Shown here piece by piece: positions 15,117-33,470 of a stretch of DNA of 64,000 nucleotides. Made by a program: the position numbers and the translations under genes. This DNA is from Acidihalobacter yilgarnensis (GTDB lineage Bacteria > Pseudomonadota > Gammaproteobacteria > DSM-5130 > Acidihalobacteraceae), in assembly GCF_001753245.1 (NCBI RefSeq), contig NZ_CP017415.1:1702501-1766500 (forward strand), read 5' to 3'. Under the pieces are notes generated by a model, which saw only the letters and a program-made list of their open reading frames with translations, was not told where the DNA came from and ran no database searches. The first letter of the stretch is position 1, and each line of letters opens with the position of its first letter.

Positions 15117-15122
15117 CTTGGG

Positions 15123-16724: not shown

Positions 16725-17006
16725 GGCAGGGCTCCAAGTAAATACCCTCTATTTACATCACTGATCAGGACATTACCCTGACTACCGCCTCAATCATCGA
16801 CCGCGTCAATGCCTCGGCTATAAAACACCTCATGAATATTCATGCGCCAGTTAAACTCACTCCTTAGTCCTGATGTGCTTCGGGCTTGAATTCGCCGCTC
16901 CAGTTTATAGCTGCCGCGATATCAAATTCGAATGCAATCCGCAGGCTTACCGAACAGATAGCTCTGGAAACGTTGGCGACCTCTGCCTAGATCCTCTGGC
17001 GGATAC
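16725..17006. other. Intergenic region after the integrase
   Basis: About 280 bases between convergent genes. I see no gene here. A 6-bp inverted repeat (TAAATA / TATTTA) just after the integrase stop could form a weak hairpin. Confidence 0.4.
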
Positions 17007-18923
17007 TTATTCACTCGGTGCCACGACTTCGTCGGCAGGAGGCGTGTCGCCTTCAATCGGATCGAAGAAGTGATACTTTAAGTCCTCCGATTTCTTGGCC
17101 TGGTACATCGCAGCATCACTGTGCCTGATCAGGGTTTCGAAATCTTCACCATCGCCGGGATAGACCGCGATGCCGATACTGGCGCCAATACGCAAGTCGT
17201 GGCCCATGATCGCAAACGGCATGGACAAACCCTCCAGGATCTTCTCCGCCACACGCACAGCATCCGCGGGCGTCCTCAATTTGGCCAACAACACGATGAA
17301 TTCATCCCCGCCCTGACGCCCCACCGTATCCTCGGCACGCAGGCAGGCGGCCAAGCGTCGGCCGACCGCCTGTAGCAACTGATCACCCACATCATGCCCG
17401 TGGCTGTCGTTGACGCACTTGAATTTATCGAGATCGATGAACATCACTGCAAAGCGGGCTTGTGCGCGCTGCGCATGCACGATCGCCTGTTGGACTCTAT
17501 CCTGGACCAGCCGCCGGTTGGCCAGATTCGTCAACGCATCGTAATTCGCAAAGTGTGTCATCTGCGCCTCGATGGTTTTGCGTTCCGTGATGTCATGGAG
17601 CATTCCGATGAATCCCCTACGACCCTCTCGATCAAGCTGGGAAATCCGTAGCTCAACAGGGAATATCTCGCCATTGCTTCGCCTGGCGGTGACCTCGCGC
17701 GGATGCCCGATCACATGTGCCTCGCCTGTTCGCCAATAACGGGTCAGATACCCGTCATGTTCACTAGAGAAGGGCTCTGGCATGAGCAATGAAACGTTTC
17801 GGCCCAGGACTTCTTCACCGCGATATTGGAACATACGCTCCGCCCCCGGATTGAACAGCTCGATGATTCCATTTTCAGAGATGGCAACGATACCTTCGTT
17901 GACACTCTCCACCAGGGTCCGGACCTGGCTCTCACTGTCGCGCAAGCGTTCGTTCGCCTCGTGGGCGTCCCGCTCGGAACGCACCAATTCCGCCACCAGC
18001 GGCGTGAACAGCCAGCGCAGCGACAACAGGGCGATCAACAACAAACCGGCCAGCAACGGCAACAGATACCTCAGCTGTTTCCAGATGGGTGCATACAACT
18101 CCGCGCTATCGATTTTCAGAACCACGCCAAGTCCTGTCCGACCGACCGGACGATAGGCCGCTACCACCTCCTTGTGACGATAATCCTTCGCAATAATCGA
18201 ACCGACCTTTCCCTGCAAGGCATAACTCATCGGCAGCGGTATCCCAGTGCGAGATGTCCTCGACAAGTGCAGCGGCTTGCGTGTCAGTGTGGAGGGGAAA
18301 CAACTCATGTTGACTTCGCCTGAGGGCACGCACATGACCAATTCCGCCGTGGTTCCCCGGCGCCCGGTGCTTTTAAACAGCTGATCCAGGGTGGGTAGGG
18401 GCGTTTCCACGACCGCCTTCCCGATCGCCTGCCCACCAAGCTCGACCTTCATCATCGAGCGTAGGAAATACCCGTTTCTATACAGCAGCTGCGCGTGCCC
18501 AGGCACTCGGATGGGGACCATCACTTCAGGACTTCGGACAAAGCGTCCGGCATGTGCGACCTCGTGTCCCATCTTGTCGTACAGCGTAATCGCTGAGGGC
18601 CCTGTCAGGAGAAACGAATTGACGCCTTTTTGTAACGCGATCTGCGCGGTCGCATTGCCAGGCTGCGCATTCAACACTTCGATTTGCTTGATCAAAAACG
18701 GGCGCGTGGCAATCGTCATGGTTTTCTCGAAACCATGCTTTATGGTGGCCTCCTCCAGCACCACGATATTTTCCAGGGATGAGCGCAAACCTGTCACTAA
18801 CTGATTTTCAGCATTGTTCTTCATCACATAAAATACCGTCATACCAACCGATACGGCTGCAATGACCAAAATAATCCTCGCCATTAGGATTATTTTTGCC
18901 TGATTTATTTTTGTTTTTTCCAT
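17007..18923 (-). CDS. Membrane PAS-GGDEF diguanylate cyclase
   Basis: A 638-residue c-di-GMP synthase. The N-terminus has TM1 (residues about 11-33), a periplasmic sensor region of about 250 residues, and TM2 (about 290-312, LLPLLAGLLLIALLSLRWLF). A PAS domain follows (ESVNEGIVAISENGIIELFNPGA), then a GGDEF domain with an intact active site, GGDEF near residue 537, preceded by RAED, which fits the RxxD inhibitory site five residues upstream. The ligand is unknown. It is a single gene on the minus strand. Confidence 0.88.
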   Translation of the reverse strand: MEKTKINQAKIILMARIILVIAAVSVGMTVFYVMKNNAENQLVTGLRSSLENIVVLEEATIKHGFEKTMTIATRPFLIKQIEVLNAQPGNATAQIALQKGVNSFLLTGPSAITLYDKMGHEVAHAGRFVRSPEVMVPIRVPGHAQLLYRNGYFLRSMMKVELGGQAIGKAVVETPLPTLDQLFKSTGRRGTTAELVMCVPSGEVNMSCFPSTLTRKPLHLSRTSRTGIPLPMSYALQGKVGSIIAKDYRHKEVVAAYRPVGRTGLGVVLKIDSAELYAPIWKQLRYLLPLLAGLLLIALLSLRWLFTPLVAELVRSERDAHEANERLRDSESQVRTLVESVNEGIVAISENGIIELFNPGAERMFQYRGEEVLGRNVSLLMPEPFSSEHDGYLTRYWRTGEAHVIGHPREVTARRSNGEIFPVELRISQLDREGRRGFIGMLHDITERKTIEAQMTHFANYDALTNLANRRLVQDRVQQAIVHAQRAQARFAVMFIDLDKFKCVNDSHGHDVGDQLLQAVGRRLAACLRAEDTVGRQGGDEFIVLLAKLRTPADAVRVAEKILEGLSMPFAIMGHDLRIGASIGIAVYPGDGEDFETLIRHSDAAMYQAKKSEDLKYHFFDPIEGDTPPADEVVAPSE

Positions 18924-19310
18924 CGTGTTACAGACTCGATTAAGAATTGATGCTCATATTCCCGGCGAATTTCAGCCAGACATATAAAGTGTCTCCGGGC
19001 GCGCTGCCGTTGTCCCAGACAGGCCAAGAACCGGAAGCCGCCTCAGGCGCCGCGTACCATAACCGAGTCCTTTATCGCCCTCTATATACCACTTCATTAT
19101 GGTAATAGGCCTTCGTACCGTTCAGCCTCAACAGATACATGGTCCTGCGCGTGCAATTGCTCAATCGTTAACAAGCTTTCCCCGCTGCGCGCTAAACGAT
19201 GAAATGGAAAGTCAGATAAAAACATGAGTCGACGCAGGCACCGCGTCTATCTGCTACTCCCGATTAACAAATCGTGACATCGGTCGCCATCCAGGGCGGA
19301 GCGCAGCTCC
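18924..19310. other. Intergenic region between two GGDEF genes
   Basis: About 390 bases with no convincing gene, holding the 5' region of the PAS-GGDEF gene and the 3' region of the next. No clear promoter or terminator was seen. Confidence 0.4.
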
Positions 19311-22300
19311 TCAGTCTGGCGGCACGTCCTGATGTTCCAGCTGACTCTGCGCGACTAGCAGACGTACCACCTTGTTGCGGCTCTCCTCTACGAGCTCTCC
19401 AGGTCCCTGGCGAGCCAGCGCCATCAGACGATCGCAGGCCCTCGCCAGCGGCTCGCCGCGGATGCCGAGTGTGCCGATATAGTGCGCAAGCGGATGAGCG
19501 GCCTGCAGCAGGTGTTCCAGTGCCCAGGGAGTGTTTGCGAATCGTATAGCGCAGCCGTCGTGATGCATGAACACGGCCAGAGCGCCCAGAGCAGTGGCGG
19601 GGCGGTTTTGTACAATTCGTAGTCGGAAGGTCTCGATCCAGGCCGGTATGTCCGCCGCCGGCATGGGCCTGGCGATGGCGTAGCCCTGGCCATGGTTTGC
19701 GCCCAGCAGGGCGGCCGCCTCAACCAGGCCGGAGCTCTCCAGCCCCTCCACGACCACCCGCTTGCCCATGTCCTGGGCCAGGCGTGTCAGGTAACGGATG
19801 AAGGTGAGGGTACGCAGAACATCGCTCGCTTCGTGCCGCACCAGGCCCTGATCGATCTTGACGACGTCGAACGGCAGCCGGTCCAGGCGCAGCAAGCTGC
19901 TGTGACCTGAGCCCAGATCGTCCTCGGCCAGCTGCACGCCCAGGGCCTTGAAGGCGACGATGCCACGGTCGCGCGCCGCCTCGTCTGCGACTTCCGCCGA
20001 TTCAAGCAGTTCCAGCATCAGCCGGCCGGGCGGGCTGTTGCCCCGCGCCAGTGCTGCCTCCAACACGTCAAGATAGCGGGTATCGGCAAGGCCCTGCGTA
20101 GGTAAATTAACGGATAGTGTCAGTTCGCACCCGACTTCGTCCCAGGCGGCCAGATCCCCGAGCGCCAGGCGGAGTCCTCGCTCGAACAGTTGGAGAAGGT
20201 CATCACTGGTGAACGCGGGCAGGAATCGGTCTGGCAGAATGATCTTGCCAGATCCGTCACGCAAGCGTGCCAGGGCCTCGACACCGGTAGTCCGGCCGCT
20301 GTAGAGGTCGATGATCGGCTGGTAGTGCATGACCAGTCCCCCCTGCTCCAGGAGGTCGAGCCAGCGGCGCCGCGTCTGGAATGCCTGCGTCGCGGGGGCA
20401 ACGGTCTCCAGTCGCGGCAGGCTCAGCCCCAATACCTGGTGCAAGTGCTCCAGCAGGCGACGCGGCTCGCGTGCGCAATAACCACCCGGATAGGGCGAAT
20501 ACAGAGTCAGCACTGCTTGCGGCAAGTTGTCCGGCGCCGCGAGCGGGACGGCGGCATTGGAATATACCCCCATCGTCTGTGCGACCTCGCGCCAGGGTGC
20601 CAAACGCGGATCGGTGGCGTAATTGAGGCAGCGCTCGATCTGGCCGCTGCGCCAGGCGCGCCCGGTCGGGCCCTGGCCCTCGGGCGAAGCATCGGTCTTG
20701 ATCGGCTGTGAGCGGCCCTCGGCCAGCATCTCGAGATAGGCCTTGAAGGCATTGCCTGCGACGAACTCGAACGTAAAGACGTCGTCCGCGTTCGGTCGAC
20801 CGATGGTGACTGCGGCCACCTCGTCCAGCCCAGTCAGGGCTTCGACCACGCCCTGAGCCAAATCGGCAAAGCGCGTCGCTCGCCAGGATAGTGCGTCGAT
20901 GCGGCGCAGAGCCTCGTTGCGGGCCTCGCTGATCGCGGCGTAGCTTTCGAGCTGAGTTTGCACATCCACACAGATGCGGCGACTCAGCACGGCGTGGACC
21001 GCCCCGGCCTGTGGTAGGGCCGACTGGATCTGCTGGGCCCACAAGTCATAGGCCTCGACCCCCCAGCCGGCTTCCACGCCGATCATGGCGTGTATCCACC
21101 CGAGGTGCGCCGCCTCTCGTCGATGATCAGCCTGGGTCAGCGCGGGGTCGAGCAGCAGACGTAAGTACCCTGCAATGGCTTCAAAATGGTGGCGCCGCTG
21201 ATCCTCTGACAAGGCATGTAACACCGGCGCGGCCCCGGGACTGACTACAAAATGTGCGTAAAAGACTTCGAGAAAAGGCACAACCTGTGCCAGTAGGGTC
21301 TCATGCACCCGGGTTAGAGTGGCATGCGCCGCCGGGCCGTAGCCAGTGAGATTTTCAGCGTGCGGCGGATCGCTCGACTGTTCGCTCGTCGGCGCGTCTG
21401 AAAGAGATCGGCACGGATCGAACAGTGTCCACCAGCGCTGACGCACGGACTTCTCAGCCTTGGTGATGTAGAGGGCCTGGTCGGCCGCGCGCAGCAGCAT
21501 GCCGGCTCCTTCCGCCTCACCATTGAGGCACAGGGGGTAGACGACGATCCCCAGACTGGCGCGCACGCGCACCTTGGCGCCCCCCTCCAACGTGATCTGC
21601 CGGGTGAGCGCCTCATGCAGGCGATCGAGCAGGCTTTCCACGTCGTCCATAGCATCGATCTCTTCCAGCAGGAAGACGAACTCGTCGCCGCCCAGGCGTG
21701 CGGCGAAGTCAGTCGTACGCAGCGTCGATTGGAGCCGCTGCGCGAGCTCGCGCAGCACCGCGTCGCCCGCCGCATGCCCGAGGGTATCGTTGATCGGTTT
21801 GAAGTCATCTAGGTCCAGCAGACACACGGCCAGTAGCCGCTCGCGACGTTTGGCGCGCGCCAGAGCCTCGTCAAGGCGTATATCCAGGGCGGCGCGGTTG
21901 GGCAGATCGGTGAGCGGATCGCGCAGCGCCATTTGCGCGAGCTTGCGACGCTCGGCGGTCAGAGCGGTTTCGCGTGCCAGAAAGACGCCGAGCAGGTTGG
22001 CTAATTCCTCGAGCGATAACTGGGTATGACGGTGGCCGAAGGTGCCCGGGGTGCGGCTGTAGAGCGCAAGAATTTGGCGGCTCGCGTCGATGCGCAGCGG
22101 CAGGGCTGCGCTGGAGCGCCAGCCAAATCGTACGAGCGTCGCTTGCCAGGGCGTGGCGTCGTCGGTCTCCTGCCAGTCCGGGATGTACATCGGCCTGTCC
22201 GTGCGTACCGCTAGGCCGGAGGGGCCCTGGGCCCAGGGCCCCTCGTCCCAGCGCAGGGAAAGCTCGGCGACATAGTCGGTCATATCATCGCTGTTGGCGT

Positions 22301-22475
22301 ATTCGCACACGATGCGCCCGTCCGGGTTGACGCTGCCCAGCCAATAGTCTTCCACGCCCCAGTCCGCGAGCAGCGGCGCGAGGCCAGCGAGCAGACCATC
22401 GGCCGAGCGCGCCCGCGCCAGCAGGACGCTGAGGCGGTGGAAGAAGTTGGCATCGTTTGCCGGTGTTTGAGTCAT
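19311..22475 (-). CDS. GAF-GGDEF-globin-GAF-EAL signalling protein
   Basis: A cytoplasmic protein of about 1054 residues. The order is: GAF (about 15-170); GGDEF with intact GGDEF near residue 260 and an RTTD inhibitory site five residues before it; a sensor-globin-like helical domain (about 365-520) with a candidate proximal haem histidine in HLGWIHAMIGVEAGWG; a second GAF (about 530-690); and EAL near residue 731 with EDDLGSGHSS, VKIDQ and VEGLES retained. It probably makes and breaks c-di-GMP in response to oxygen or a GAF ligand. The ATG at 22475 was chosen; a GTG at 22559 is possible. No Shine-Dalgarno is obvious for either. Confidence 0.85.
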   Translation of the reverse strand: MTQTPANDANFFHRLSVLLARARSADGLLAGLAPLLADWGVEDYWLGSVNPDGRIVCEYANSDDMTDYVAELSLRWDEGPWAQGPSGLAVRTDRPMYIPDWQETDDATPWQATLVRFGWRSSAALPLRIDASRQILALYSRTPGTFGHRHTQLSLEELANLLGVFLARETALTAERRKLAQMALRDPLTDLPNRAALDIRLDEALARAKRRERLLAVCLLDLDDFKPINDTLGHAAGDAVLRELAQRLQSTLRTTDFAARLGGDEFVFLLEEIDAMDDVESLLDRLHEALTRQITLEGGAKVRVRASLGIVVYPLCLNGEAEGAGMLLRAADQALYITKAEKSVRQRWWTLFDPCRSLSDAPTSEQSSDPPHAENLTGYGPAAHATLTRVHETLLAQVVPFLEVFYAHFVVSPGAAPVLHALSEDQRRHHFEAIAGYLRLLLDPALTQADHRREAAHLGWIHAMIGVEAGWGVEAYDLWAQQIQSALPQAGAVHAVLSRRICVDVQTQLESYAAISEARNEALRRIDALSWRATRFADLAQGVVEALTGLDEVAAVTIGRPNADDVFTFEFVAGNAFKAYLEMLAEGRSQPIKTDASPEGQGPTGRAWRSGQIERCLNYATDPRLAPWREVAQTMGVYSNAAVPLAAPDNLPQAVLTLYSPYPGGYCAREPRRLLEHLHQVLGLSLPRLETVAPATQAFQTRRRWLDLLEQGGLVMHYQPIIDLYSGRTTGVEALARLRDGSGKIILPDRFLPAFTSDDLLQLFERGLRLALGDLAAWDEVGCELTLSVNLPTQGLADTRYLDVLEAALARGNSPPGRLMLELLESAEVADEAARDRGIVAFKALGVQLAEDDLGSGHSSLLRLDRLPFDVVKIDQGLVRHEASDVLRTLTFIRYLTRLAQDMGKRVVVEGLESSGLVEAAALLGANHGQGYAIARPMPAADIPAWIETFRLRIVQNRPATALGALAVFMHHDGCAIRFANTPWALEHLLQAAHPLAHYIGTLGIRGEPLARACDRLMALARQGPGELVEESRNKVVRLLVAQSQLEHQDVPPD

Positions 22476-22572
22476 GATGGAAGCGGGATCGGGTGAACGG
22501 CGCAGGGTCGGAATCGGTGGAGATTCATGGTTGTGACTTGCCTCCGGTATACGTATCACTCCGAGTCCTGAG

Positions 22573-22777
22573 CTACTGCTCCGCTCGTAACGTCACCACC
22601 CGCCGGGCGGTGATCGTTATCTCTCCGTCCGTCTTGAGATTGCCGCCGAGTCGTTCGCGCTTGTTTCTGATGGTGGTAAAATCGCCGAAGCTAGGCAGCT
22701 TGGTCTCAATTTTTCCTGCTCCAGACATTCGGGCAATGTCCAGGGAACATTCTGACAAGCGCTTTGGTCAATACCAT
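22573..22777 (-). pseudogene. ihfA: Remnant of integration host factor alpha
   Basis: The C-terminal part reads KLPSFGDFTTIRNKRERLGG, NLKTDGEITITARRVVTL, clearly the DNA-binding arm of IHF alpha (family: LSGFGNF...RPGRNPKTGE...ITARRVVTFRPGQ). An N-terminal MVLTKA followed by a one-base frame change into LSECSLD matches the IHF start, and roughly 35 residues of the middle are missing. It is too damaged to fold as IHF. A host chromosomal ihfA must exist elsewhere. Confidence 0.7.
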
Positions 22778-23340
22778 ACCCTCTACTCGCGCCGAAGCGC
22801 CGGCCGCGCTCATCTCATCCATGGTCTGAGGCAGTATAGCCGGCTCTCGACCTCGACCAGGGACCGCAGCCGTCGGCGGCGTGTTGTCGGTCTACTCGGA
22901 CCACTGTATATCGTAGCTGTCATTCATCACTGAATCTCCCCACGTTCCAACCCAATCACCATATAAAGACATTCCTCGAATGGGCGCTTGACCAGTTCGG
23001 CTCGGCTCGGCTCGGCCACGTTATTGGTGAATTTAATGCTTAGTCAGACAGACTGCGAGGTCGGGTATAGTCCCAAGAACGATACCAGGTCTCCTACTCA
23101 TCATCGGGCGCATACGGTCTTTCAGGAGGCTGTGTCCCGGCTGTCATCTGCAACGGTTGCTATCGAGAAAACAAGCGGGGTGAGAGACGGCAACGGAGCG
23201 TTAGCTCCGAACGGTGGTTCTTGGTCGAGTTCAGCCATAATACTGAAAACCAGCCGATCACATCATACGATTGCACATTGCAGCTTTCAGCCACAGATGA
23301 ACCTCTCCATGTGCCAGCCAAATACCATATGAAAAGCTCA
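22778..23340. other. Intergenic region with a short tandem repeat
   Basis: No gene recognised. About four copies of GGCTC lie near 22999-23018. The region otherwise looks like mixed remnant DNA between the ihfA fragment and the ArsR gene. Confidence 0.35.
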
Positions 23341-23341
23341 C

Positions 23342-23386
23342 AGGGGAGGGAGACTCCCCTCAGACCAACCCGATAGAGAGTTGGTC
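23342..23386 (-). terminator. Two hairpins downstream of the ArsR gene
   Basis: AGGGGAG-GGAGA-CTCCCCT (23342-23360) and GACCAAC-10 bases-GTTGGTC (23363-23386) are two perfect 7-bp stems located just beyond the ArsR gene's 3' end. No T-run, so termination is only likely, not certain. Confidence 0.45.
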
Positions 23387-23405
23387 CTCCGAAAATAAAG
23401 GATGG

Positions 23406-23771
23406 TTACCGGCGGCGAAGCTTCTGACAGAACGCTAGGTGCACGCAATGGATAACTTCCATGGTCTGCCCATGGTTTAACCGATAGAGACTGTGATAGC
23501 CAAGGCGGCGTACGCAAACCAGATTGCTGCGTCTGAGTAGGCCGAGATGTTGTGAGAGGTTGGATTGAGTCGTACCGACACGCACCATCAACTCTTTGAC
23601 GTTGAATTCCTGATCACCAAGTGTGCAGATGATCTTTAAACGTAACGGGTGGGCCATTGCCTTCAAGATTTTGGCGACCAATGTTAGATTGGCTGGGCGC
23701 TTATTAAGTGCCTGCACAGCCAAATGCGGGATATCATCAGTCTGCTGCAACGCAGAAGTAGATTGCCCCAT
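23406..23771 (-). CDS. ArsR-family regulator, SqrR/BigR-like
   Basis: A 121-residue winged-helix repressor with the ArsR fold (AMAHPLRLKIICTL, then VGTTQSNLSQHLGLLRRSNLV as the recognition helix). The classic ELCVCDL metal site is replaced by EFNVKEL, so it is not an arsenic sensor of ArsR type. Cys49 and Cys115 sit in the same segments and 66 residues apart, as do the two persulfide-sensing cysteines of SqrR and BigR. I infer a sulfane-sulfur or redox sensor. It lies downstream of rusticyanin on the same strand, 177 bases away. Confidence 0.8.
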   Translation of the reverse strand: MGQSTSALQQTDDIPHLAVQALNKRPANLTLVAKILKAMAHPLRLKIICTLGDQEFNVKELMVRVGTTQSNLSQHLGLLRRSNLVCVRRLGYHSLYRLNHGQTMEVIHCVHLAFCQKLRRR

Positions 23772-23948
23772 CGTATCTCCTTTGAACCATGTCTACTGGA
23801 TTGAATTGGGATTCATAATCTGGCTGCGTCAGTCAGTCTTTCCCATCGTGCGATATCCCTATGGGCTAAACAGGGGGGAACTAATAAACCGCCAACAATT
23901 TCGGTTCACAATTCGCAGATTAGTGAGTGTCACATAACCGTGGCATTT

Positions 23949-24536
23949 CTACGTGATGGGCGGTACGACAATTCTTCCCCACATGCCGAAGGCGGCATGT
24001 GTTGGGAATAGACATAAGTAGTAAAATTTGCCAACAGGCGCAGTCCATTCAAGGCGGGTGTAACTGAACATATCCGGGTTTGATAAAATAGGCATCTTCC
24101 CGGTATCAATCAGAGGATGCTCAACTCGGTGGTCGGTTGGCACGATGGCATAAGGGGGCGGGGCTTGCGTTACGGCAAAGGTGTGCGGGGCGACCTGGCT
24201 GGTATTGATGACATAGAACGTAATTCGGGCGCCTTTCGTGAATGTCAGGGTCGGATTTTTCAGGCCATCGACCTCGAAGCTGGGATAGGAGAAGCCCGGC
24301 AATACCTGCTCGACAACGACGATGGGCTGATCACCGCTATATTGGATTTGGTTATGCGAGCCAACCTCGCCAGTATCGTCCTTCATCATGCGCTGGACTT
24401 GCGACCAACTTTCAGATTGGAAGGTGCTATCCGTATTGGCCTGCGCTAGCGGCCCACCCAACCCGATCCAGATAACCCCGACTCCCAACGCACCGAAGAG
24501 TATTGAGTACACATCGACCTGGCCTCGGTCCGACAT
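23949..24536 (-). CDS. rus: Rusticyanin-type blue copper protein
   Basis: Rusticyanin carries electrons from outer-membrane iron-oxidising cytochromes in acidophiles. The 195-residue protein has an N-terminal hydrophobic export segment (residues about 10-32). Family signatures are LPGFSYPSFEVDGLKNPTL and APPPYAIVP. All four copper ligands are present: His in VAPHTF, and Cys-x4-His-x4-Met in YYLCLFPTHAAFGM. The N-terminal segment may remain as an anchor rather than be cleaved. No other iron-oxidation genes are next to it. The gene lies inside the mobile island. Confidence 0.88.
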   Translation of the reverse strand: MSDRGQVDVYSILFGALGVGVIWIGLGGPLAQANTDSTFQSESWSQVQRMMKDDTGEVGSHNQIQYSGDQPIVVVEQVLPGFSYPSFEVDGLKNPTLTFTKGARITFYVINTSQVAPHTFAVTQAPPPYAIVPTDHRVEHPLIDTGKMPILSNPDMFSYTRLEWTAPVGKFYYLCLFPTHAAFGMWGRIVVPPIT

Positions 24537-24604
24537 AGCTTTTACCTCGTTGTACTTATGATTTCATTTTTGGTGAAAGTCGGGTGAAGTATTGATCATC
24601 ACTC

Positions 24605-24647
24605 CAATCAATTCAAGCATCAATCATATTGATGCTTGAATTGATTG
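24605..24647. repeat. Long perfect palindrome, 20-bp arms
   Basis: A 20-base arm, a 3-base loop (CAT) and the exact reverse complement, 69 bases upstream of the rus start. The arms are AT-rich and begin and end CAATCAA / TTGATTG. The same terminal heptamers bound the palindrome at 35729-35763. It could be an operator, a cruciform or a MITE end; it does not look like a terminator. Confidence 0.8.
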
Positions 24648-24756
24648 TTGAAAATCAGCGTAGTGATGTACTGGTTATTTCGAAGGTCGTAACGCGATCT
24701 TTGCTTGACTAGGCCTTCGGAGCGGACCGCTCGTTGCTCCTCTCAGCAGTACAGGG

Positions 24757-25361
24757 TTATGCTGAAGCAGGTGGTATATCCTCAGCTTTCGATGAACCGG
24801 AGGTCAGCTTCAGCACGCGCTCGTGATCTGCATAGTCCCCGCGACAACCGAGCGATGCACCTTCCGCAGCAGCGGTTTCGTTCGACCATCCGAGAAGGGG
24901 TTCTGTAGAAATGCCCAGGGTAGCTTCTAGGTGGGCGACCGACGCGTTCGGTTGCGCAAGGAGTAGGAAGCGTAGTCGCGGCGATGCCCCAATGAGGGGC
25001 GCTTGATCGGCAGCGGAAACCCGGTAGCGTTGTCGAGCATGACGGTAGCCGTCCTCGGCGAGATGGCGGCCGATCGCGGCGAGGATCTCCGTTCCGCTGG
25101 CTCCGGGTAGCAGGATTTCTCCCAGCTTTCCGCCACGAGATCCGAACATCCGGGCCGCAAGTTCGCGAGCGACCGCGCTTGCCAATGCCGGGCCAGAGAC
25201 GTCCGCAATGTCGTAATACGCAAGTCGGTCGGTCGTGTGGAAAGCTGTCTGGGAAACCCACGAGGTTTTGCCTGCCCCGGAGAAGCCGATGACGCAAGAG
25301 GGCTGATACTCTGGCGCTTACGCTCAAGGTGCAGGGGCGGATGCCGGTTTGCTGCAGCCAT
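24757..25361 (-). pseudogene. Decayed P-loop ATPase
   Basis: Reading across frames gives LHLERKRQ, then VIGFSGAGKTSW (Walker A), AYYDIADVSGPALASAVARELAARM as a helical segment, VMLDNA (Walker B-like) in another frame, and LRFLLLAQPNASV with a C-terminal helix. At least two frame changes are needed (near 25305 and near 25035) and the C-terminus stops early. It resembles a STAND/AAA ATPase of the kind found in defence genes or transposon helpers, but the family could not be fixed. Confidence 0.45.
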
Positions 25362-25459
25362 CGGCAGCGGCCGGGTATAGATGGCCGCCGCCCCCCAATG
25401 AGGGGGCGGGGCCGAATGCGCCGGATTCCTTTATCCGACGTTTTGTCCACAAAAGTCAC

Positions 25460-26445
25460 ACTCGCGAATCCTAATGATCCACGCGCCTCGTGCCGTCGCC
25501 ATGGCTGCCACGCCAAGGTTTGATGACGGTCGATGGAAAGCGGTCCAGGTACCACCCTGTCCCGTTAGCCACCTCGTGCCCTGCCAGGGGCTTTAGTCTC
25601 TTATCACTGCTTCGGGCTTTCGCCTGCAGAACCCTTCGTATCGGTTCAGCTCTGCAGGTCAGGCCGGCGCACATGCGCCGCACCGCTACTTGCCCGATCT
25701 CCCACACCTGTACAGCGCCTTGCGACGCCAAACCCAGCGGTTGCCTACCGCTCATTGGCCCAGGTGCTTCCCACGTTAGTTAGACGCTACTACGCAATAT
25801 ATCGCCGCCGCTGTCATGATCGAGTCATCGCATACGCTCACCCGGTTGCCCGGTGTCAGTCCCGCGAGATTCCATAGCCGGTGACCTACCAGACTCATCA
25901 ATCCCAGCTACCGATTAACCCGCTACGCTGCGGGCCAACGGCTGTCTATATGCTCTGCACAGCATCCCTCATCGAGGACGCCGTTAGACGCTTGAGCTAT
26001 GCATCGGCCCCGGGCTTCCCCAGGTGCCCCGTACCCTGAACGGTCCATGCCGTCGGCCTCGCGGCCATCGTACGATCTACAGATTACCCTGTAGCTAAGC
26101 CTACGTCTGCAGCACCCGTCACGCGCTTGCGCTCGTCCCGGGGATCTGGATTGAGTACCAGATTTTCGCGTCAAACCGGAACGTCGCGGCATTTCCTCCG
26201 CGGGCCCGTGTCCGTGTCGCCCAATCTACCTGATTGCTCCGGATAGTCGGATTGAGTCGAGTCGGGAGTTTCACCCGCCGCGCTCATCGCAGCCGCGCCA
26301 GCTCCATTACGAGCACGCGGCTACAGCAGTTCCGGTAGGGTGGCGCCCTACCTTCCAAGAGATTACGAGGGGGTTGGCAGCCCCCTCACTGAACTGGCAG
26401 GGAGCGGGCCAACAGGCCCACGTTGATGACGCTTTCGCGTCTGTG
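25460..26445 (-). ncRNA. Candidate large structured RNA
   Basis: About 1 kb without a convincing gene but full of perfect hairpins. Read on the minus strand, from 5': GACGC-GAAA-GCGTC (26428-26441); GGGCC-TGTT-GGCCC (26406-26419); a 7-bp stem at 26367-26387; a 7-bp stem at 26334-26352; GCCGCG/CGCGGC closing 26292-26321; CTACAG/CTGTAG at 26077-26094; GGCC-GCGA-GGCC (26055-26066); CCCGC/GCGGG at 25919-25934; CCGG-GCAA-CCGG (25842-25853); a 6-bp stem at 25736-25752; GGCGC/GCGCC at 25666-25679; and GGC-GAAA-GCC (25615-25624). Four stems carry GNRA loops only in this orientation. Size and style recall GOLLD/ROOL-type ornate RNAs; identity was not tested. Confidence 0.55.
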
Positions 26446-26680
26446 TCTCCTTCATCTTTTCTCACTTATCCTAGGTGGATCAATACATTAGGGCGATGGT
26501 CATCTCGCCCAGTTTAGGAATCTCTCTTTATGGAGCGGCCACTTTCGTGTCCGGATCATTGCGCGGCTGCGGCTTCGCCGCACACGCGAAAAATCAGCGG
26601 TCTCGACCAAGCGCATCCCCCTAGCGCGCAGACGCGGCCGCATGGATCCAGAGAGACCGTCGGCTATTGCCATAGAGGTG

Positions 26681-26754
26681 CCCTCGCGCGCGCGAGGCAT
26701 CGCCTGCGCAGCCTATGGAATCAGGCGCGAATCCGTGCCCTCGCGCGCGCGAGG
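26681..26754 (+). promoter_or_regulatory. Twin CG-rich palindromes before the basic-protein gene
   Basis: GTGCCCTCGCGCGCGCGAGG occurs at 26678-26697 and again at 26735-26754, 57 bases apart. The core CCTCGCGCGCGCGAGG is a perfect 16-bp palindrome. They lie 98 and 41 bases before the downstream start, in the gap with the divergent RNA candidate, so a shared operator is plausible. The alternating CG could also form Z-DNA. Confidence 0.55.
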
Positions 26755-26794
26755 GGAGAAGCGCTCTAATTTTGTCGTCCCCCTACTACTAGGT

Positions 26795-27499
26795 ATGGAC
26801 GCACACTCATACCTCATCAGGGATACGCTGCACGCTTCCCGTGCCATCATCAACGCAGTCTCACGCGGACATGATCGGCATACCTCAGGCCTCGTGCCAC
26901 TCGAACGCGCGGAAGCACTGGTCACCAAGTTCGCCGAGCGTTACGGGGTGCTCGAGTCGGCATCCGAGGCGCGGCAGCGACGCCGACACAAGCTTGCCCG
27001 TGCCCGATTGCATATGGGTTTTGTGGGGCGCGTCGAGGATGGCCGTCTCTGGTGGCTGTTGTTGGTCAGTCGGGAGGGTGAAGGTCCGGTGACGACGCTG
27101 GAGAAGCTGTACGCCGCGCAGGACAAACACCATCGCATTCACATCATGGGGCTGGAGTTGGTCCGCTACCCACGACCTGGTAGCGTAGAGCGCTGGAGTT
27201 GGCGACTGCCGACCGACGCGTATCGCTTGCTACTCAAGCACGCCGTGGCCTTGGCGCGGCATCAAGATCCGCGTCAGGCGCAGGCGCTGATCAATCACGA
27301 AATGCGCCGGCCGGGCTATAGAGGGATCCGCACGCAGCGTAAAGAATTGTTCCGGGCGATGGCGCGGGCTCGCGCGCCACTGGTCAAGCGCGGCGCGGCG
27401 CCGCTCGTGTTCCCCGAATCACAGTTCTGGCTGCGCATGTTGTCGGCCGACATGGAAAGTATACCGCTGGGTGTGCTGGTGAGACGCTTGCTCAGATGA
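26795..27499 (+). CDS. Unrecognised basic protein
   Basis: About 235 residues from MDAHSYLIRDTLHASR. I do not recognise the family. It is Arg/Lys/His-rich, with a helical N-terminal half containing ARQRRRHKLARARLHMGF, a WWLLLVSREGEGPVTTLEKL segment, and WSWRLPTDAYRLLL. There is no signal peptide or membrane segment. Basic charge and its place opposite the RNA candidate suggest nucleic-acid binding, as an inference. The frame is open upstream through the CG palindromes to 26642, but those residues are low-complexity repeats and the ATG at 26795 is preferred. Confidence 0.6.
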   Translation: MDAHSYLIRDTLHASRAIINAVSRGHDRHTSGLVPLERAEALVTKFAERYGVLESASEARQRRRHKLARARLHMGFVGRVEDGRLWWLLLVSREGEGPVTTLEKLYAAQDKHHRIHIMGLELVRYPRPGSVERWSWRLPTDAYRLLLKHAVALARHQDPRQAQALINHEMRRPGYRGIRTQRKELFRAMARARAPLVKRGAAPLVFPESQFWLRMLSADMESIPLGVLVRRLLR

Positions 27500-27549
27500 G
27501 CCCGGGCCTTGCCGTGAACCAGTACAACTACTCTTGGGACATAACAAAC

Positions 27550-27850
27550 TTGGAGAGCTGTACGATACTTTGCATCGGCTCGCGCCTTGGTGAATGGGTT
27601 AGTGGGCAACAGACCCTTGTTCCGGAACTGGCGCTCGATCCAATCGAAGAACAGTTCCACCTGAGGCTTACTGTGGGTCAGCCGGTGCAGGTGCGTGTTC
27701 TCGCCGGTCAGCTTGCCTTCGCGGATATGCTCCTCGACCGCGTACAGCGCGCCGATCTGCGCCAGCGCCTCGCCGCTGCCCTCAGGCGCCGCCGCGTGGA
27801 TCTCGAAGAAGCTGCGTCGTGTATGCGCGCAACATTGGGCGTGAGTCAGG
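27550..27850 (-). pseudogene. IS66 transposase (TnpC) fragment
   Basis: An internal/C-terminal piece reads AHTRRSFFEIHAAAPEGSGE, ALAQIGALYAVE and LFFDWIERQF...LLPTNPFTKA, the conserved region after the DDE core of IS66 transposases. Both ends run into unrelated sequence. An unrelated-frame extension makes a longer open stretch, but only this part is real. Confidence 0.75.
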
Positions 27851-28159
27851 CTGGTGGCCCGCAGAGATCGACGCGATGAATAGCATAGAGTTTGCGGTAG
27901 CGGCAGGACACCTTTAGCACAGATGATTATGTTTCGCTTAACGATAGTATCGTGGACGTTATATTTGGGTGTAATTTGTATGTTTGATAGGTATTTTGCA
28001 AAAAACTGATTGGATCGAAAATCGAGGCGGCTATACAGAGAGGGAGCGTGCGTTGGAAACGATACAGCACAAACTACAGCAATTCGATCCTGGCTTGACA
28101 AGGATGCTTGTGTTCTAACCCTGAATGACGTTGCGGTTAAGACACTCCGCTCGCTGCCA

Positions 28160-28565
28160 GGCGATCACGTGCCTTCGAGTGCAGATGACTCCACCAAGCT
28201 GCTGTCCGAGCACGAAGATGCCAAAATCTTCGCCGGCAGACATAGTCTCCTGCCTATGATGAAACTGCACTTCCCTATCCCACTCACCTGATCAATATCA
28301 ACGGGCTGAGCGATCTCAAGGGCATCGGCTTGATGGCGAGAGCATCTATATTGGAGCTATGACCACTGAGGACGAGCTCATCGCTTCGGATATCCTGCGT
28401 CTGCACTGCCCGATGCTCATTGAGTTGGCCAAATTGATTGCCGATCCGCAGGTGCGTAATAAAGGCACCATCGGCGGCGATATCGCTCATGGTGACCCTG
28501 GAAACGACCATCTAGGATTGATGCTGGTGCTGAACGCGCAGTTCGTCATTAATTTTCCACCGTAA
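28160..28565 (+). pseudogene. CoxM/XdhB-like FAD-binding subunit fragment
   Basis: Pieces in different frames read KLLSEHEDAKIFAGRHSLLP, HLININGLSDLKGI, then MTTEDELIASDILRLHCPML and LIADPQVRNKGTIGGDIAHG. These are the FAD-binding motifs of the medium subunit of CO dehydrogenase / xanthine dehydrogenase family enzymes. Two frame changes lie between 28270 and 28350, and the gene is cut by the IS200 left end. Only about the first 45% is left. Confidence 0.75.
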
Positions 28566-28570
28566 GGTTT

Positions 28571-29140
28571 AAACCACCGGTTTTAACCGGTCAGCTTTAG
28601 CTATGACAATGGCTGCAACCGAGGAGGGGTAGCCATGGAATACAGATACGGTAGTCATACAGTGTACGAAATCGAGTATCACTTTGTGTGGGTGACGAAG
28701 TACCGCTACAAGGTGCTGGTGGGTGACATCGCGGAGCGTGTGCGGAGTTTAGTCCGAGAGACTTTGTGAGGCGTTTGAGATCAGGATTGTGAAAGGAGTA
28801 GTGAGCAAGGATCACATCCACATTTTGGTGAGTTGTCCGCCCAACATGGCGGCGAGCGAGATCATGTGACGGATCAAGGGACGGACGTCAAGCAAACTCT
28901 TCGAGGAATTTCCGCATGTGAAGAAGCGGTACTGGGGAAGACATTTTTGGGGCCCGAGGCTACTTTTGTGTGACGGTGGGACAGATGACGGAAGAGATGA
29001 TCAAGCAGTACCTGGAGCATCATTTTAAGCCGAGGCCGAACGATGATTTCAAGATGGAGCCCGAGTAAGGACGCGTCGTTCAGGCGACGCGTATCCGGAC
29101 TTTTAGTCCGCCATACCAACCCACCGGCTTTAGCCGGTGG
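28571..29140 (+). mobile_element. IS200/IS605-type element, decayed
   Basis: Terminal hairpins mark both ends, as in this family: ACCGG-6 bases-CCGGT at the left (28576-28591) and CCACCGGC-TTTA-GCCGGTGG at the right (29121-29140). Two more stems lie after the transposase: ACGCGTCG/CGACGCGT (29071-29092) and GGACT/AGTCC near 29097-29109. Confidence 0.75.
28635..29068 (+). pseudogene. tnpA: IS200-type Y1 transposase TnpA, broken
   Basis: It begins MEYRYGSHTVYEIEYHFVWV TKYR, the typical IS200 start. Later frames give the HUH motif in KDHIHILVSCPPNMAASEIM and a C-terminal helix with the nucleophile region TEEMIKQYLEHHFK. A premature stop near 28767 and frame change follow RSLVRETL, a TGA interrupts EIM-RIKG, and another frame change precedes the C-terminus. 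It cannot make an active enzyme. Confidence 0.8.
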
Positions 29141-29149
29141 TTGTTGAGT

Positions 29150-29659
29150 TTAATCATCAAAATATTCTTGAATCATTTGACGTCCGCGATGGATGCGGCT
29201 TTTAACAGCTTCCCGTGTGAGAAATAGCTTATCTGCAATCTCAGAAATCGAGTATTCTTCGAAGTCTCGCAAAATTATTACTACCCGATATTTTCCGGGG
29301 AGAGATTGAATGGCTGAGATCAAATCATACTGTAAGCCTGGGTTCTCAATGTAAATAAAAGCAATATTATCCGGGTCTGGCAAAACCGTAAGACCACGCA
29401 TAGATCGTAATAACCGGGAGCACTCCCTTCGCACAATCGCGAAAACCCATGCGGGAAACGAGGTTAGCGTCCGCAGTGCACCTAGCCTGCTGTAAATTTG
29501 CATCATGGACTCCTGTACCGCATCGTCCGGATCCACGCCGCTTGCGCATTGTGATTTCGCGATCCTTTGTAAATCAGGGCGACAGGAAATCAGCAATTTC
29601 TCAACAGCTTTCTGATCGCCCATTATTGCCGACTCAAGAAGGAAAGAATCATGTCGCAT
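29150..29659 (-). CDS. ECF-type RNA polymerase sigma factor
   Basis: A 169-residue group IV sigma factor with region 2 (DPDDAVQESMMQIYSRLGAL, FPAWVFAIVRRE) and region 4 (LPGKYRVVIILRDFEEYSIS, EIADKLFLTREAVKSRIHRG). The ATG was chosen for AGGAGA about 8 bases upstream. No anti-sigma gene is adjacent. It is AT-rich compared with its surroundings, as is the next gene, which suggests a separate origin. It lies upstream in the transcription sense of nothing else, ending close to the IS200 right end; target genes might include the nearby bufferin operon. Confidence 0.85.
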   Translation of the reverse strand: MRHDSFLLESAIMGDQKAVEKLLISCRPDLQRIAKSQCASGVDPDDAVQESMMQIYSRLGALRTLTSFPAWVFAIVRRECSRLLRSMRGLTVLPDPDNIAFIYIENPGLQYDLISAIQSLPGKYRVVIILRDFEEYSISEIADKLFLTREAVKSRIHRGRQMIQEYFDD

Positions 29660-29684
29660 GCTCAATTTCTCCTCATGTATTGGT

Positions 29685-30452
29685 TTATTGCTTATTATGG
29701 TAAACACTGGACGATTTGTCTTTCATAACGCCTTTTGCGTAATTTAATATTGTTTTCGCCGCATAGTCTCCTTGTTCGGCGGATTCTTGGAGCCAATAGA
29801 TAGCGCGAGGCATATTCTTGGGAACGCCCAGTCCTCGAAAATAAATGCTTCCCAGATTATATTGAGCACGCGCATTATTTTTCGATGCAGCCAATGAGAA
29901 CCAATGTATCGCCTTGCGATAATTTTTATGAGCACCTCGACCGACCTCGTATGCAATACCAAGATTGTTTTCAGCCATGCTATTACCTTGTAGCGCAGAT
30001 TTTCTAAACCAATAAATAACTCTACTTGTATCGGAATGCACATCAATGCCATTGGCATATGCAATTGCCATATTGACTTCTGCGATTGGGTTGCCCTGAT
30101 CTGCTGACCTACGATACCAGTAGATGGCTTTTGCCGCGTTGGCCTGGAACCCAAGGCCTTTCGCATAATCCCTGGCCAATCGGCACTGTGCTTTTGCGTT
30201 CCCATTTTCTGCTGACTTTAGATACCAATAATTCGCTTGTTTCCATAACTTTTGGTTTTTATAGCCGATGTTTGTTTGCGTTGGATCGAACCTGACGCCA
30301 CGCTTATATTGAGTATTGGCTATCACTCCTCTACTCACTTTTTTGTTGGGTCCCTCCCATGTGATAATGGATTTAAATCGTGTTGGAGCCTGTCTTTCTT
30401 CGTGGCCGTTGGTAATGGCGTATGCGGATGTCAATGCGATGGTTGGTAGCAT
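29685..30452 (-). CDS. Sel1-repeat protein
   Basis: A 255-residue protein with a short hydrophobic N-terminus (MLPTIALTSAYA, probably an export signal) and about five Sel1-like repeats of 36 residues, each with the pattern A-x-YWYRRSADQGNPIAE / NLGxAYxxGxG. Such repeats form alpha-solenoids that bind partner proteins. It is followed 25 bases later by the ECF sigma gene on the same strand, so a sensor-to-sigma link is possible. AT-rich. Confidence 0.8.
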   Translation of the reverse strand: MLPTIALTSAYAITNGHEERQAPTRFKSIITWEGPNKKVSRGVIANTQYKRGVRFDPTQTNIGYKNQKLWKQANYWYLKSAENGNAKAQCRLARDYAKGLGFQANAAKAIYWYRRSADQGNPIAEVNMAIAYANGIDVHSDTSRVIYWFRKSALQGNSMAENNLGIAYEVGRGAHKNYRKAIHWFSLAASKNNARAQYNLGSIYFRGLGVPKNMPRAIYWLQESAEQGDYAAKTILNYAKGVMKDKSSSVYHNKQ

Positions 30453-30485
30453 CTCTCGAGTCCCAGATAGAATAAAATATTGGGG

Positions 30486-30950
30486 TCATGTGTTCTTTAT
30501 GTGAGTTTTACGCCACCACAATCGGATAGCAGCATCGAAAGATAAGGTTCCCGGGCCATGTAATAGTGTTGTCAGCAACATCAGCCCCCACACCTTGTGA
30601 TCGGTGAAACCCGTCGGCCACAGCGCTGGGTAGGACACCACAGCGATGATGTTGTAGACAAACAGGAAGCCGGCAGCAAACCGCGTACCAAGGCCGAGGA
30701 CCAGCAGCACGGGAAACGCCAGCTCGATGCCGGTGGCGAGATAGGCTGCAAATATCGGCGGCAGCAGAGGCACGTGATACATGTACTCGAACAGATACAC
30801 GGTCGAATACATGCTTTGGATCTTGACCATGCCAGCCCGCCAGAACACCTCGGCGACCCACAGTCTGAGCAGTAGATCTGCTAGCGGGGATATCTTGTCC
30901 AAGATCTCGGAAATACGCGCATAAAAATTAGCGAAATTATTGAGGATCAT
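30486..30950 (-). CDS. bufD: DoxX-family membrane protein of the bufferin operon
   Basis: A 154-residue inner-membrane protein with four hydrophobic segments and the DoxX signature (LLLRLWVAEVFWRAGMVKI, PVLLVLGLGTRFAAG, WGLMLLTTLLHGPGTLSFD). In bufferin operons a DoxX protein is the fourth gene, after bufA, bufB and bufC. The ATG has GGAGAAAGGC immediately upstream. Its precise role in metal handling is unknown. Confidence 0.8.
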   Translation of the reverse strand: MILNNFANFYARISEILDKISPLADLLLRLWVAEVFWRAGMVKIQSMYSTVYLFEYMYHVPLLPPIFAAYLATGIELAFPVLLVLGLGTRFAAGFLFVYNIIAVVSYPALWPTGFTDHKVWGLMLLTTLLHGPGTLSFDAAIRLWWRKTHIKNT

Positions 30951-31154
30951 GCCTTTCTCCTGTTTGGGATACGCATAAAATGTCGAGCGCAAGTATCCAC
31001 GATAAGCTTTGTGCGAAATTGAAATTAAAGTGTTTGGGGTGGCGCTCTGGACCAGGCGCAGATGACGAGATATTGGCCACCACATATCGCGGGCGCAGCG
31101 GCCGAGCGGCTAGTATGAGTGCCAGCCGAGACTCGGCCGGGTCCGCCAGCTCAG

Positions 31155-31876
31155 TCATATCGTGCACGCCCATCGCCGTAATCTGCGCAGTACGGAGTTT
31201 CGGTAGATCGCGATGCGGCGAAGGGCAGAGAGACGGTCGTCGGATATCCCGAGAGGAGCGACGCATTCCGGGTCATCAAGCACCGCAAGCGGCGGCAAGT
31301 CAGCATCGCATTCGATCAGGATAGGGCGCGCGCCGACCAGCACCAGGATGTCTCTATAGAATGTCCGGATCTCGGCGCAGACGGGCTGATCGTGTGTCTC
31401 GATACGTAGCACTGTCATGTCCTCGAATTCACGTCGCGTATGTCCTGCCAGGTGGATTTCCTGCACCCGACCGATACGCTCCACGACATGCGCAACCGCT
31501 TCCTCGGTATAGGGCAGCGACAGCAAGCCGTTGAAATGGCTGCCGCCATGCGCATTCCAGCACAGGTGTTCGGATATCAGCGCCGGTTGTACCTGATCGG
31601 CCAGCCGACGCAACCGGCGCAGATGCCCATCGTCCACGGGATCCGTATTGCCGAGCCCCATGCTGACGCCATGCAGACTCAACGGATAGCGCTCGGCCAG
31701 CATGCGCAGATTGCGCAAAGGCCGCCCCCCGGACCGAAATAGTTTTCGCTATGGGCCTCGAGCCAGGCGGCTGCAGTGCTGCCGAGCAGGATTTCCCGTT
31801 CGGATTCGGCGTGCAACCCGATCCCGGCATGCACCGGGACCGGAGCGACGCCGCCTTGGCGGTCAGGCGCGTTCAT
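31155..31876 (-). CDS. bufB: BufB, DUF692 iron-dependent oxidase, frameshifted
   Basis: DUF692 enzymes modify cysteines of bufferin or methanobactin precursors using a multi-iron site. The first part (GIGLHAESEREIL, AAWLEAHSENYFG) and the second (PLRNLRMLAERYPLSLHGVS, ALISEHLCWNAHGGSHFNGL, EIHLAGHT, THDQPVC) together contain the metal-binding His/Glu/Asp residues. The frame breaks at a run of six C (plus strand 31725-31730); one extra base restores FGPGGRPLRNLRM. The C-terminus is abnormal: after LPPLAVL it runs into RRIAIYRNSVL, the start of the BufC family, so a bufB-bufC deletion-fusion is likely. Confidence 0.8.
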
Positions 31877-31882
31877 GGGCAA

Positions 31883-32275
31883 TCAAGAACCACTCTCACC
31901 ATGCAGCTTTTCGCGCTTCATTTCGAGCATTTTCTTGACCATCTCGCGTTTCTCCGGCGACATCTCCATCAGCTTGTGATGGAACATCTGCTCGCGCTTG
32001 AGGGCAACTTCGCTAGGATGCGTTGTACCTCCCGCGATCATCCCGCATACGCCTTGCGGCACCAGGATGAAGGCGTTCGGATCGCGCGCCTTAGGATCGC
32101 TGCCGGCGCAGGAACCGGTAGCGGTCTTACAGTCGTTGCGGTGAGCGGCGTTGACCCCGAAGCACTTGACCATCTGGGGTCCATCGGCCGCGTTGGCCGG
32201 AGTAACCGCAGCCAGCGTCGCTGATGCGACAACACTAGCAAGGGCCAGTTTCAATATTTTATGGTGCGATCTCAT
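31883..32275 (-). CDS. bufA1: Bufferin-type periplasmic copper-binding peptide precursor
   Basis: A 130-residue DUF2282 protein. It has a signal peptide ending ANA before ADGPQ and the four conserved cysteines in [18 protein letters not shown] and VPQGVC. In this family, cysteines are oxidised by BufB to copper-chelating groups and the product buffers copper in the periplasm. The long charged C-terminal tail ([20 protein letters not shown]) is unusual. First gene of the buf operon; the gap to bufB is 6 bases. Confidence 0.88.
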
Positions 32276-32356
32276 ATAAACCTCTCAATGAAAGATGGAT
32301 AACGGACAATTTCGACATACACTGACAATCTGTGAAGCCAAGGTCGTTTTCAAGCA

Positions 32357-32377
32357 AAGTCACAAATGCAGTGACTT
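32357..32377. promoter_or_regulatory. Inverted repeat upstream of bufA1
   Basis: AAGTCAC-7 bases-GTGACTT, perfect 7-bp arms with a centre spacing near 14, about 82 bases upstream of the bufA1 start. Suitable as a dimeric regulator site; no regulator can be assigned. Confidence 0.45.
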
Positions 32378-32699
32378 ACCTTCATAGAGGCACGAAGCCG
32401 GCAAAAGGATTCACAATTCCTCAAAAAAAATGGGTATCCGGATTTGAGTGTGTTTGACCACAGCGAGCAAGATACGCGTGCGCACCGACTTGGTGATGAG
32501 CTATGCTCACCGATAGTGGGCCATTACTAAGGCAACGCTGTCTCTCAGAGCGGGCACGTCATCATCCAGAAGAAGCCCGCACTGAGCGATACCAAGGAGT
32601 GACGTCATGTGCAGGGTAAACGTCAATATCTGGATATCGGCGAAGACCATATGGATGCTTTTTCGCCCAAACGCCCTGGCCATTGGAGGAATATCATCG

Positions 32700-32845
32700 C
32701 ACGCCGGAATACATCGCCGATAATGCTCCGGCCGGTTTACTCCATGATCACCGCATCAAAGCAGGGGTCTGGGGGCGTCTGGTTCTTCTAGAGGGACGGT
32801 TGTGTTACTGCCTGGAGACAGCGGCGGGGGAAGCTGGGTGCTGAG
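32700..32845 (+). pseudogene. DUF1971 (TehB/YeaR-like) fragment
   Basis: The frame reading TPEYIADNAPAGLLHDHRIK, AGVWGRLVLLEGRLCYCLE matches the core of the small cupin DUF1971 domain (family: TAPAGxxxxHxxKxGxWxRLxVxxGxL). It stops at a TGA soon after and lacks a proper start, so only a middle fragment remains. The rest of 32378-32885 shows no other gene. Confidence 0.55.
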
Positions 32846-32885
32846 TCCAGAGCACTCAGCCTGGATATTGAGGGCTCGCGCCGCT

Positions 32886-33233: not shown

Positions 33234-33263
33234 ATACTGGCGCTCCTTGCCGTTATGTCGTTT

Positions 33264-33470
33264 TTAGTGCTGTAGCGGTGGGGCGTGTTCGTAGCGGATA
33301 GGGGCGTCCGAAGGTTGTGGTTCCGCGCCGGCTGCCTGCAATTTGGCACTCAAGTCGGTTGCCAAATCCCCCAGCTCTGGGTGCGCCAATAAGCCGTCAA
33401 GCAGGTCCTGTGCCTTGGATGCATTGAGCGTAACGGTAACGGATTTCTTGTCCTGTTTTACAATGCGCAT
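33264..33470 (-). CDS. Small hypothetical protein
   Basis: 68 residues, MRIVKQDKKSVTVTLNASKA QDLLDGLLAHPELGDLAT..., with a beta-strand then two helices and a Pro-rich tail. No family recognised. It starts 5 bases after the upstream gene stops, supporting a real translated frame in an operon. Confidence 0.6.
   Translation of the reverse strand: MRIVKQDKKSVTVTLNASKAQDLLDGLLAHPELGDLATDLSAKLQAAGAEPQPSDAPIRYEHAPPLQH

Follow-up and report, generated by a model that had tools for sequence, protein, structure and literature searches.

A Form II-type rusticyanin gene on an integrative element at a serine tRNA gene

Rusticyanin genes have been described both inside and outside iron-oxidation clusters. 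For Acidihalobacter the gene order cyc2-cyc1-cup-coxBACD-ctaA-ctaB-rus has been reported, and stand-alone rus genes, some of them with flanking transposases, are known as well (both from a portion of PMC10654088). The Form II rusticyanin of A. prosperus is a singleton, whose function is given as unknown in section 16 of PMC5216662. Rusticyanin on mobile DNA has precedents in the stand-alone genes and in a plasmid-like region, as described in portions of PMC10654088 and PMC6803676, respectively. In the literature searched on Acidihalobacter rusticyanins and islands, mainly open access, no title or abstract opening among the matches listed describes the gene that is the subject of this work. We analysed a 64,000-nucleotide stretch of DNA (hereafter the window) from a host genome (G000) that is a single contig of 3,566,941 bases; the host is probably a salt-tolerant iron-oxidising acidophile.

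The gene lies on the minus strand at 23949..24536. Its frame is intact, with an ATG at 24536, a Shine-Dalgarno-like GAGGT stretch directly 5′ of the start and a stop codon ending at 23949, and the 195-aa product was identified as a Form II-type rusticyanin by its open reading frame, phmmer, NCBIfam, a tree, an alignment and AlphaFold2/Foldseek. A phmmer search of the PDB returned nine distinct sequences with E values up to 0.001, all nine of which are rusticyanins, the top match being 2cak, the rusticyanin of Acidithiobacillus (Thiobacillus) ferrooxidans (E 6.4e-33, residues 36-191), whereas Pfam at E 0.001 assigned no family. The NCBIfam rusticyanin model TIGR03095 gave 109 bits, which is under the curated cut-off of 146.7, a threshold for annotation rather than a biochemical trait, and one that is also missed by the host copy in the iron-oxidation cluster (142.4) and by the orphan copies of the host (124.9) and of its congener G001 (113). 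In the AlphaFold2 model, 134 of the 195 residues have a pLDDT of at least 90; the mean is only 84.3 because residues 1-29, which by eye look like a signal peptide, pull the average down, and the protein is apparently an exported cupredoxin. Foldseek aligned the model with 2cak at a TM score of 0.92 (target length) and an rmsd of 1.8 Å, the rusticyanin fold extending over the whole mature length. Matches of the model to viral folds seemed to reflect a generic beta-sandwich likeness and were set aside. The preliminary description of this DNA had credited the protein with all four copper ligands and the family core, and phmmer, the alignment and the fold agree with it: the type-1 ligands H118, C175, H180 and M185 are all present. 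Judging from ligand conservation and fold, the exported protein would bind one type-1 copper through these four residues.

The rusticyanin gene is carried by an integrative element of 48.7 kb (15013..63754), which is delimited by 18-bp end repeats and whose site is empty in G001. The integration site is a tRNA-Ser(CGA) gene (14937..15029, plus strand; ARAGORN and Rfam RF00005), the 3′ end of which forms an attL-like repeat (15013..15030, plus strand) identical in 18 of 18 bases to the attR-like repeat at 63737..63754 (plus strand), and the same right end is found in G001. A tyrosine integrase with a DUF6538 domain (15123..16724, plus strand; Pfam PF00589, E 1.7e-11, and PF20172, E 1.5e-20) starts 93 bp past the tRNA gene and is 99% identical at the amino acid level to a copy in G001. 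The empty site was recognized in a single region of G001 that aligns with window positions 5205-15030 (77%) and with a stretch beginning about 145 bp past the right repeat (74%), so that the DNA flanking the element runs on across the same tRNA with fewer than 200 unaligned bases. Together, the tRNA target, the integrase, the flanking direct repeats and the empty site in a relative mark the element as an integrative genomic island. From this anatomy and the comparison with G001, serine tRNA genes would be the targets of the integrase, which would recombine their 3′ ends with the element. General scans of a subset of the element proteins revealed no relaxase or type IV secretion genes. Base composition, at 0.553 compared with 0.577 for the left flank, did not set the island apart and was discarded as an island marker.

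A related element of 11.6 kb resides in G001 at another serine tRNA gene, tRNA-Ser(GGA) (C1:91299-102888). It matches the host element at the integrase end (1735 bp, 98.7%), in the block 25322-27577 (98.5%) and at the right end (267 bp, 92.9%). Because the backbone blocks are 98.5-98.7% identical, compared with about 72-77% nucleotide identity in longer core alignments of the two genomes, the element backbone appears to have moved recently. These repeats, integrase, empty site and near-identical backbone bear out the mobile setting that the preliminary description had proposed. In the G001 element, 79 bp stand in place of host positions 16736-25321, the matches restart at 25322, and rusticyanin is absent. 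The host sequence missing there is a variable cargo module (16736..25321) that encodes two c-di-GMP proteins, an ArsR-family regulator and rusticyanin; the former two are a PAS-GGDEF protein (17007..18923, minus strand; Pfam) and a GGDEF-GAF-EAL protein of 1082 aa (19311..22559, minus strand; Pfam) that also has a weak protoglobin match (24.2 bits; gathering score 25). A comparison of the sequences at the two junctions of the module showed no direct or inverted repeats of at least 9 bases. Past the module lies a gene for a 285-aa protein (26642..27499, plus strand), which matched no Pfam or NCBIfam model and has a counterpart in the G001 element, matched in two pieces at 90-99% amino acid identity; it is a candidate core gene of the element family. 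Distant matches to this protein occur in three further genomes of the 369 searched. The cargo of the G001 element includes two adjacent radical-SAM genes (L051 16126-18737). Related integrases adjoin the same tRNA in G002, where the gene is in two pieces, and in G003, where it has an internal stop and a frame change.

Two further clear rusticyanin genes, a Form I and a Form II copy, are present in the host genome, and the island gene is the third; two weaker matches span only short stretches, and one of these falls in another cupredoxin-like protein, adjoining a multicopper-oxidase-like frame. The Form I copy, 43% identical to the island copy, sits in an operon-like rus/cox run in which Pfam recognizes COX1, COX2, CtaA, CtaB (UbiA), SCO, Rieske and cytochrome b. 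Cyc2, cup and coxC were read in this cluster by eye only: the candidates have no Pfam match at E 1e-4, and the Cyc2 candidate, a 445-aa protein with an N-terminal CAACH, has no NCBIfam match at 1e-10. In the gap between the cyc2 and cup candidates, searched for cyc1, no frame of at least 100 aa suited to it was seen. The Form II copy is a singleton between aldolase and alpha/beta-hydrolase genes, near pnp, and a Form II gene occupies the same place in G001. Assigned by gene context, the two host copies fit Form I and Form II of A. prosperus as described in a portion of PMC5216662. In another congener, G002, the Form II gene is split by an IS21-type insertion (L019 8442-10869); because this insertion interrupts the gene, Form II may be dispensable there. 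The preliminary description had proposed to look for a second chromosomal rus-cyc2 locus; the host has the Form I rus/cox cluster, with its Cyc2 candidate, and in addition the Form II singleton. The island gene, by comparison, stands alone, as had also been suggested: no cyc2, cyc1, cup or cox gene of an iron-oxidation (rus) operon was found among the element proteins scanned, and no cytochrome or oxidase among the island proteins scanned, which take in part of the short frames. CXXCH occurs in two element frames of at least 80 aa, the radical-SAM protein ArsS and a frame of 96 aa.

On this evidence we favour, with a probability of about 0.58, the reading that the island gene is a third host rusticyanin, which belongs to the Form II lineage and travels as optional cargo of a tRNA-Ser element, and that it serves as an accessory periplasmic copper protein and does not represent the transfer of a pathway. 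The island proteins scanned yielded neither a cytochrome nor an oxidase, and the host possesses both at other loci, which makes an auxiliary function in the periplasm likelier than a transfer of iron oxidation. With an iron-oxidation gene cluster present at another locus of the host, a spare copper protein would have moved, not the ability to oxidise iron. In the acidic periplasm the island rusticyanin may shuttle electrons or buffer copper in support of the chromosomal system, the item moved being an auxiliary periplasmic copper protein and not the iron-oxidation pathway.

The gene has a potential regulator next to it. An arsR gene (23406..23771, minus strand; Pfam HTH_5 and NCBIfam) lies 177 bp downstream of the rusticyanin gene on the same strand. 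Its product scores 73.9 bits against NF033788, over the cut-off of 55, and 74.1 bits against the nearest specific model, NF040642 (BigR), under the cut-off of 155, and we file it as a member of the ArsR/SmtB family. A perfect inverted repeat with 20-bp arms and a 3-nt spacer (24605..24647), located 69-111 bp upstream of the rusticyanin start, is a candidate operator. It is the longest perfect inverted repeat in the window (spacer up to 8), and in ten mononucleotide shuffles of the window, with arms of at least 10 counted, the arms reached 11 at most. The palindrome is absent elsewhere in the three genomes searched with up to three mismatches. From the sequence, a regulator-operator pair is plausible, and the adjoining repressor might switch rusticyanin through the palindrome. 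When the palindrome was considered as a general arsR operator, nothing similar was found within about 1.5 kb on each side of seven other arsR genes, and the link between palindrome and regulator is for this reason a guess. Promoter-like matches upstream of rusticyanin numbered 1, compared with 2.2 expected by chance. Next in length among the perfect inverted repeats of the window is one at 35729-35763 (17-bp arms), whose ends CAATCAAT...ATTGATTG are shared with the palindrome upstream of rusticyanin.

Other genes of note lie on the island as well. Ergothioneine genes egtB and egtD lie at 39239-41433, each over its NCBIfam cut-off, and arsenosugar genes (arsS, TIGR04283 and TIGR04282, all over cut-off) at 50084-57212; amid the latter, a VTT domain and a mercuric-reductase-like oxidoreductase share one frame (53440-55821). 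Bufferin-type copper RiPP genes (HvfX/DoxX-like, BufB-like and BufA2-like, all under cut-offs) are located at 30486-32275, and the BufB-like frame (31155-31718), which begins at model position 39, seems split.

The strongest competitor of the accessory reading, which we regard as possible but would not favour, is that the rusticyanin is copper-resistance cargo, a protein that mainly binds excess periplasmic copper alongside the island's other genes for metal and redox stress. The presence of the bufferin-type genes (under cut-offs), the arsenosugar genes and a glutathione reductase is consistent with it, as are two published observations, each from a portion of its source: the rusticyanin in the plasmid-like region of Sulfobacillus thermotolerans lies beside copper genes, its authors allowing a part in metal resistance (PMC6803676), and in A. 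ferrivorans ACH the expression of rusA and rusB rises in the presence of copper (PMC7463520). However, the nearest of these metal and stress genes is about 6 kb from rusticyanin, and the adjoining regulator is nearest to BigR, which is named as sulfite-sensing and not as a copper sensor.

The lineage of the island copy was examined in a maximum-likelihood tree of 52 rows, all obtained by rusticyanin queries plus one PDB rusticyanin. Of 70 loci scanned, two were without match and 16 duplicates and the fragment L014 were dropped before the PDB row was added; five of the 35 matches of one search had no locus and are therefore absent from the tree. The island copy joins three Form II rows with support 100/99 (one of these rows being a fragment, from the interrupted gene) and falls on the 39-row side that contains 2cak with support 99/98. 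The preliminary description had named a position among non-rusticyanin cupredoxins as one outcome that would overturn it; no such placement was seen in this tree, whose rows were found by rusticyanin queries. In the best tree, the three Form II rows group apart from the island copy at 98/74, and the branch of the island copy is long (0.67), its placement being flagged as unsure by the tree program. We then constrained the topology, with groups named after the tree had been seen: joining the island copy to three Form I rows gave a p-AU of 0.026, and making it the sister of the host Form II copy gave a p-AU of 0.234 and was not rejected.

Comparison of the genes themselves points to an old separation. 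The island and host Form II copies share 66% amino acid identity over 144 codons (65% over the matched part), and in the full alignment the island copy is 54-57% identical to the orphan (Form II) genes. Counted by codon position over 144 codons, the island copy differs from host Form II at 44/29/94 sites, as constraint on the protein would produce, although the pair mixes both branches and the constraint may not lie on the island one. At third positions the island copy differs from host Form II in 94 of 144 codons and from G001 Form II in 88 of 151, whereas the host and G001 Form II genes differ from each other in 70 of 151; GC3 is alike in the island (0.63) and host Form II (0.69) copies. Because the island differences exceed those that separate host and G001 Form II, an old split is suggested, which would make the island copy probably a xenologue from an unsampled relative, a conclusion for which the tree alone is no proof. 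We consider it unlikely that the gene is instead a recent duplicate of the host Form II gene that was captured by the element and evolved fast afterwards: the two share a lineage, the sister placement survives the topology test, and three departures at otherwise invariant columns (described below) fit fast evolution, but the third-position differences are large despite similar GC3 and the best tree puts the island copy outside all three Form II copies.

Searches for relatives gave few matches. No relative of the island rusticyanin was found in plasmid and phage records at E 1e-5, and none of 17 pattern matches in a scan of viral contigs was confirmed as a relative. A scan of genome contigs yielded 17 loci, all at most 43% identical, in a collection that may omit records near the host genome. 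Profile searches at E 1e-15 detected rusticyanin-like matches in five of 369 class genomes and in one of 398 phylum genomes, the host's own. When window positions 22600-24781 were searched as DNA in the 369 class genomes, with the best two candidates per genome kept, at least 14 genomes matched. Among the matches listed, just two genomes covered the rusticyanin part: G000, through the gene itself and Form II, and G001, through Form II and a 75-base match to Form I. The other 12 genomes matched in the arsR part only, and no donor was found among these matches.

The conservation of the copper site was assessed in an alignment (A2) of 34 of the 51 non-PDB tree rows, which also served for the fold. 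The His, Cys, His and Met ligands with their C-x4-H-x4-M spacing are kept in 34 of 34 rows and are among 22 columns invariant across all 34 family members, the island copy counted. In the other 33 rows, 25 columns are invariant; the island copy keeps 22 of them and departs at residues 83, 119 and 171, residue 119 adjoining ligand H118. The same test on four other rows gave 22 of 22 invariant columns kept in each, so that some relaxation of the island copy is likely. The motifs NTSQVAPH[ST]F and C[LM]FP[VT]HA[SA]FGMWG occur in four of four Form II/island rows and in none of the 30 other A2 rows, three of which differ at the leading asparagine in the alignment. Where the Form II orphan genes have HSF the island copy reads HTF, and a V of the ligand loop is replaced by T. 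That the gene is a decaying passenger without function seems to us distinctly unlikely. The long branch and the departures at 3 of 25 invariant columns would fit decay, as would gene fragments on the island, where the frame at 57676-58308 covers only positions 159-364 of TIGR03169 and the BufB-like frame lacks the start of its model; against this, the rusticyanin frame is intact, the four copper ligands are kept, the differences are biased by codon position and a Shine-Dalgarno-like stretch precedes the start.

The least probable explanation, horizontal transfer of iron-oxidation capacity by an island rusticyanin that came from another iron oxidiser and is active in ferrous-iron respiration, accommodates the rusticyanin family, the intact copper ligands, the integrative element and the mobile elements reported beside rus operons (in a portion of PMC10654088), but a rus/cox cluster is present in the host anyway, scans of island proteins turned up neither a cytochrome nor an oxidase, and the island copy groups away from the Form I lineage (tree; p-AU 0.026 with a group named post hoc). 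The preliminary description had left a choice between moved iron-oxidation capacity and an extra copy; the extra copy stands, and the capacity is not supported, given the host cluster, the island proteins scanned and the Form II grouping.

The accessory copper protein that we favour carries a caution, in that a rusticyanin on an island should not be read as a transfer of iron oxidation. Divergent, mobile and next to a regulator gene, and with both other forms retained by its host, it offers a natural test of the role of Form II apart from iron oxidation. More speculatively, and with considerable doubt, Form II rusticyanins could be a functionally distinct, partly mobile branch in which a changed copper-site surface docks with partners other than Cyc2/Cyc1, the island copy being a redox- or sulfur-responsive (ArsR/BigR-like) carrier of electrons or copper that has been spread between acidophiles by tRNA-Ser elements.

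Among known systems, the island copy resembles the Form II rusticyanin of A. prosperus, which is likewise a singleton outside the iron-oxidation cluster (from a portion of PMC5216662), and would share with it a clade and the copper-site motifs provided that the syntenic orphans in G000-G002 belong to Form II, as judged from their gene context. Unlike the Form II orphans, it sits on a mobile element beside an arsR gene. With the A. ferrooxidans rusticyanin (2CAK) it has in common the fold (TM 0.92), the four ligands and the C-x4-H-x4-M spacing, but the two are only about 42% identical, and the island copy has four extra residues in the stretch after residue 133, a different sequence ahead of the first histidine ligand and within the Cys-Met loop, and no iron cluster around it. 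The G001 element is like the host island in its closely similar integrase, 285-aa protein and right end and in its tRNA-Ser target, and differs in using the GGA in place of the CGA tRNA-Ser, in its length of 11.6 kb and in carrying two radical-SAM genes and no rusticyanin. By description, as given in a portion of PMC6803676, Sulfobacillus thermotolerans Kr1 likewise has a rusticyanin on mobile DNA with metal-related genes; there, however, the carrier is an integrated plasmid-like region of 83 kb.
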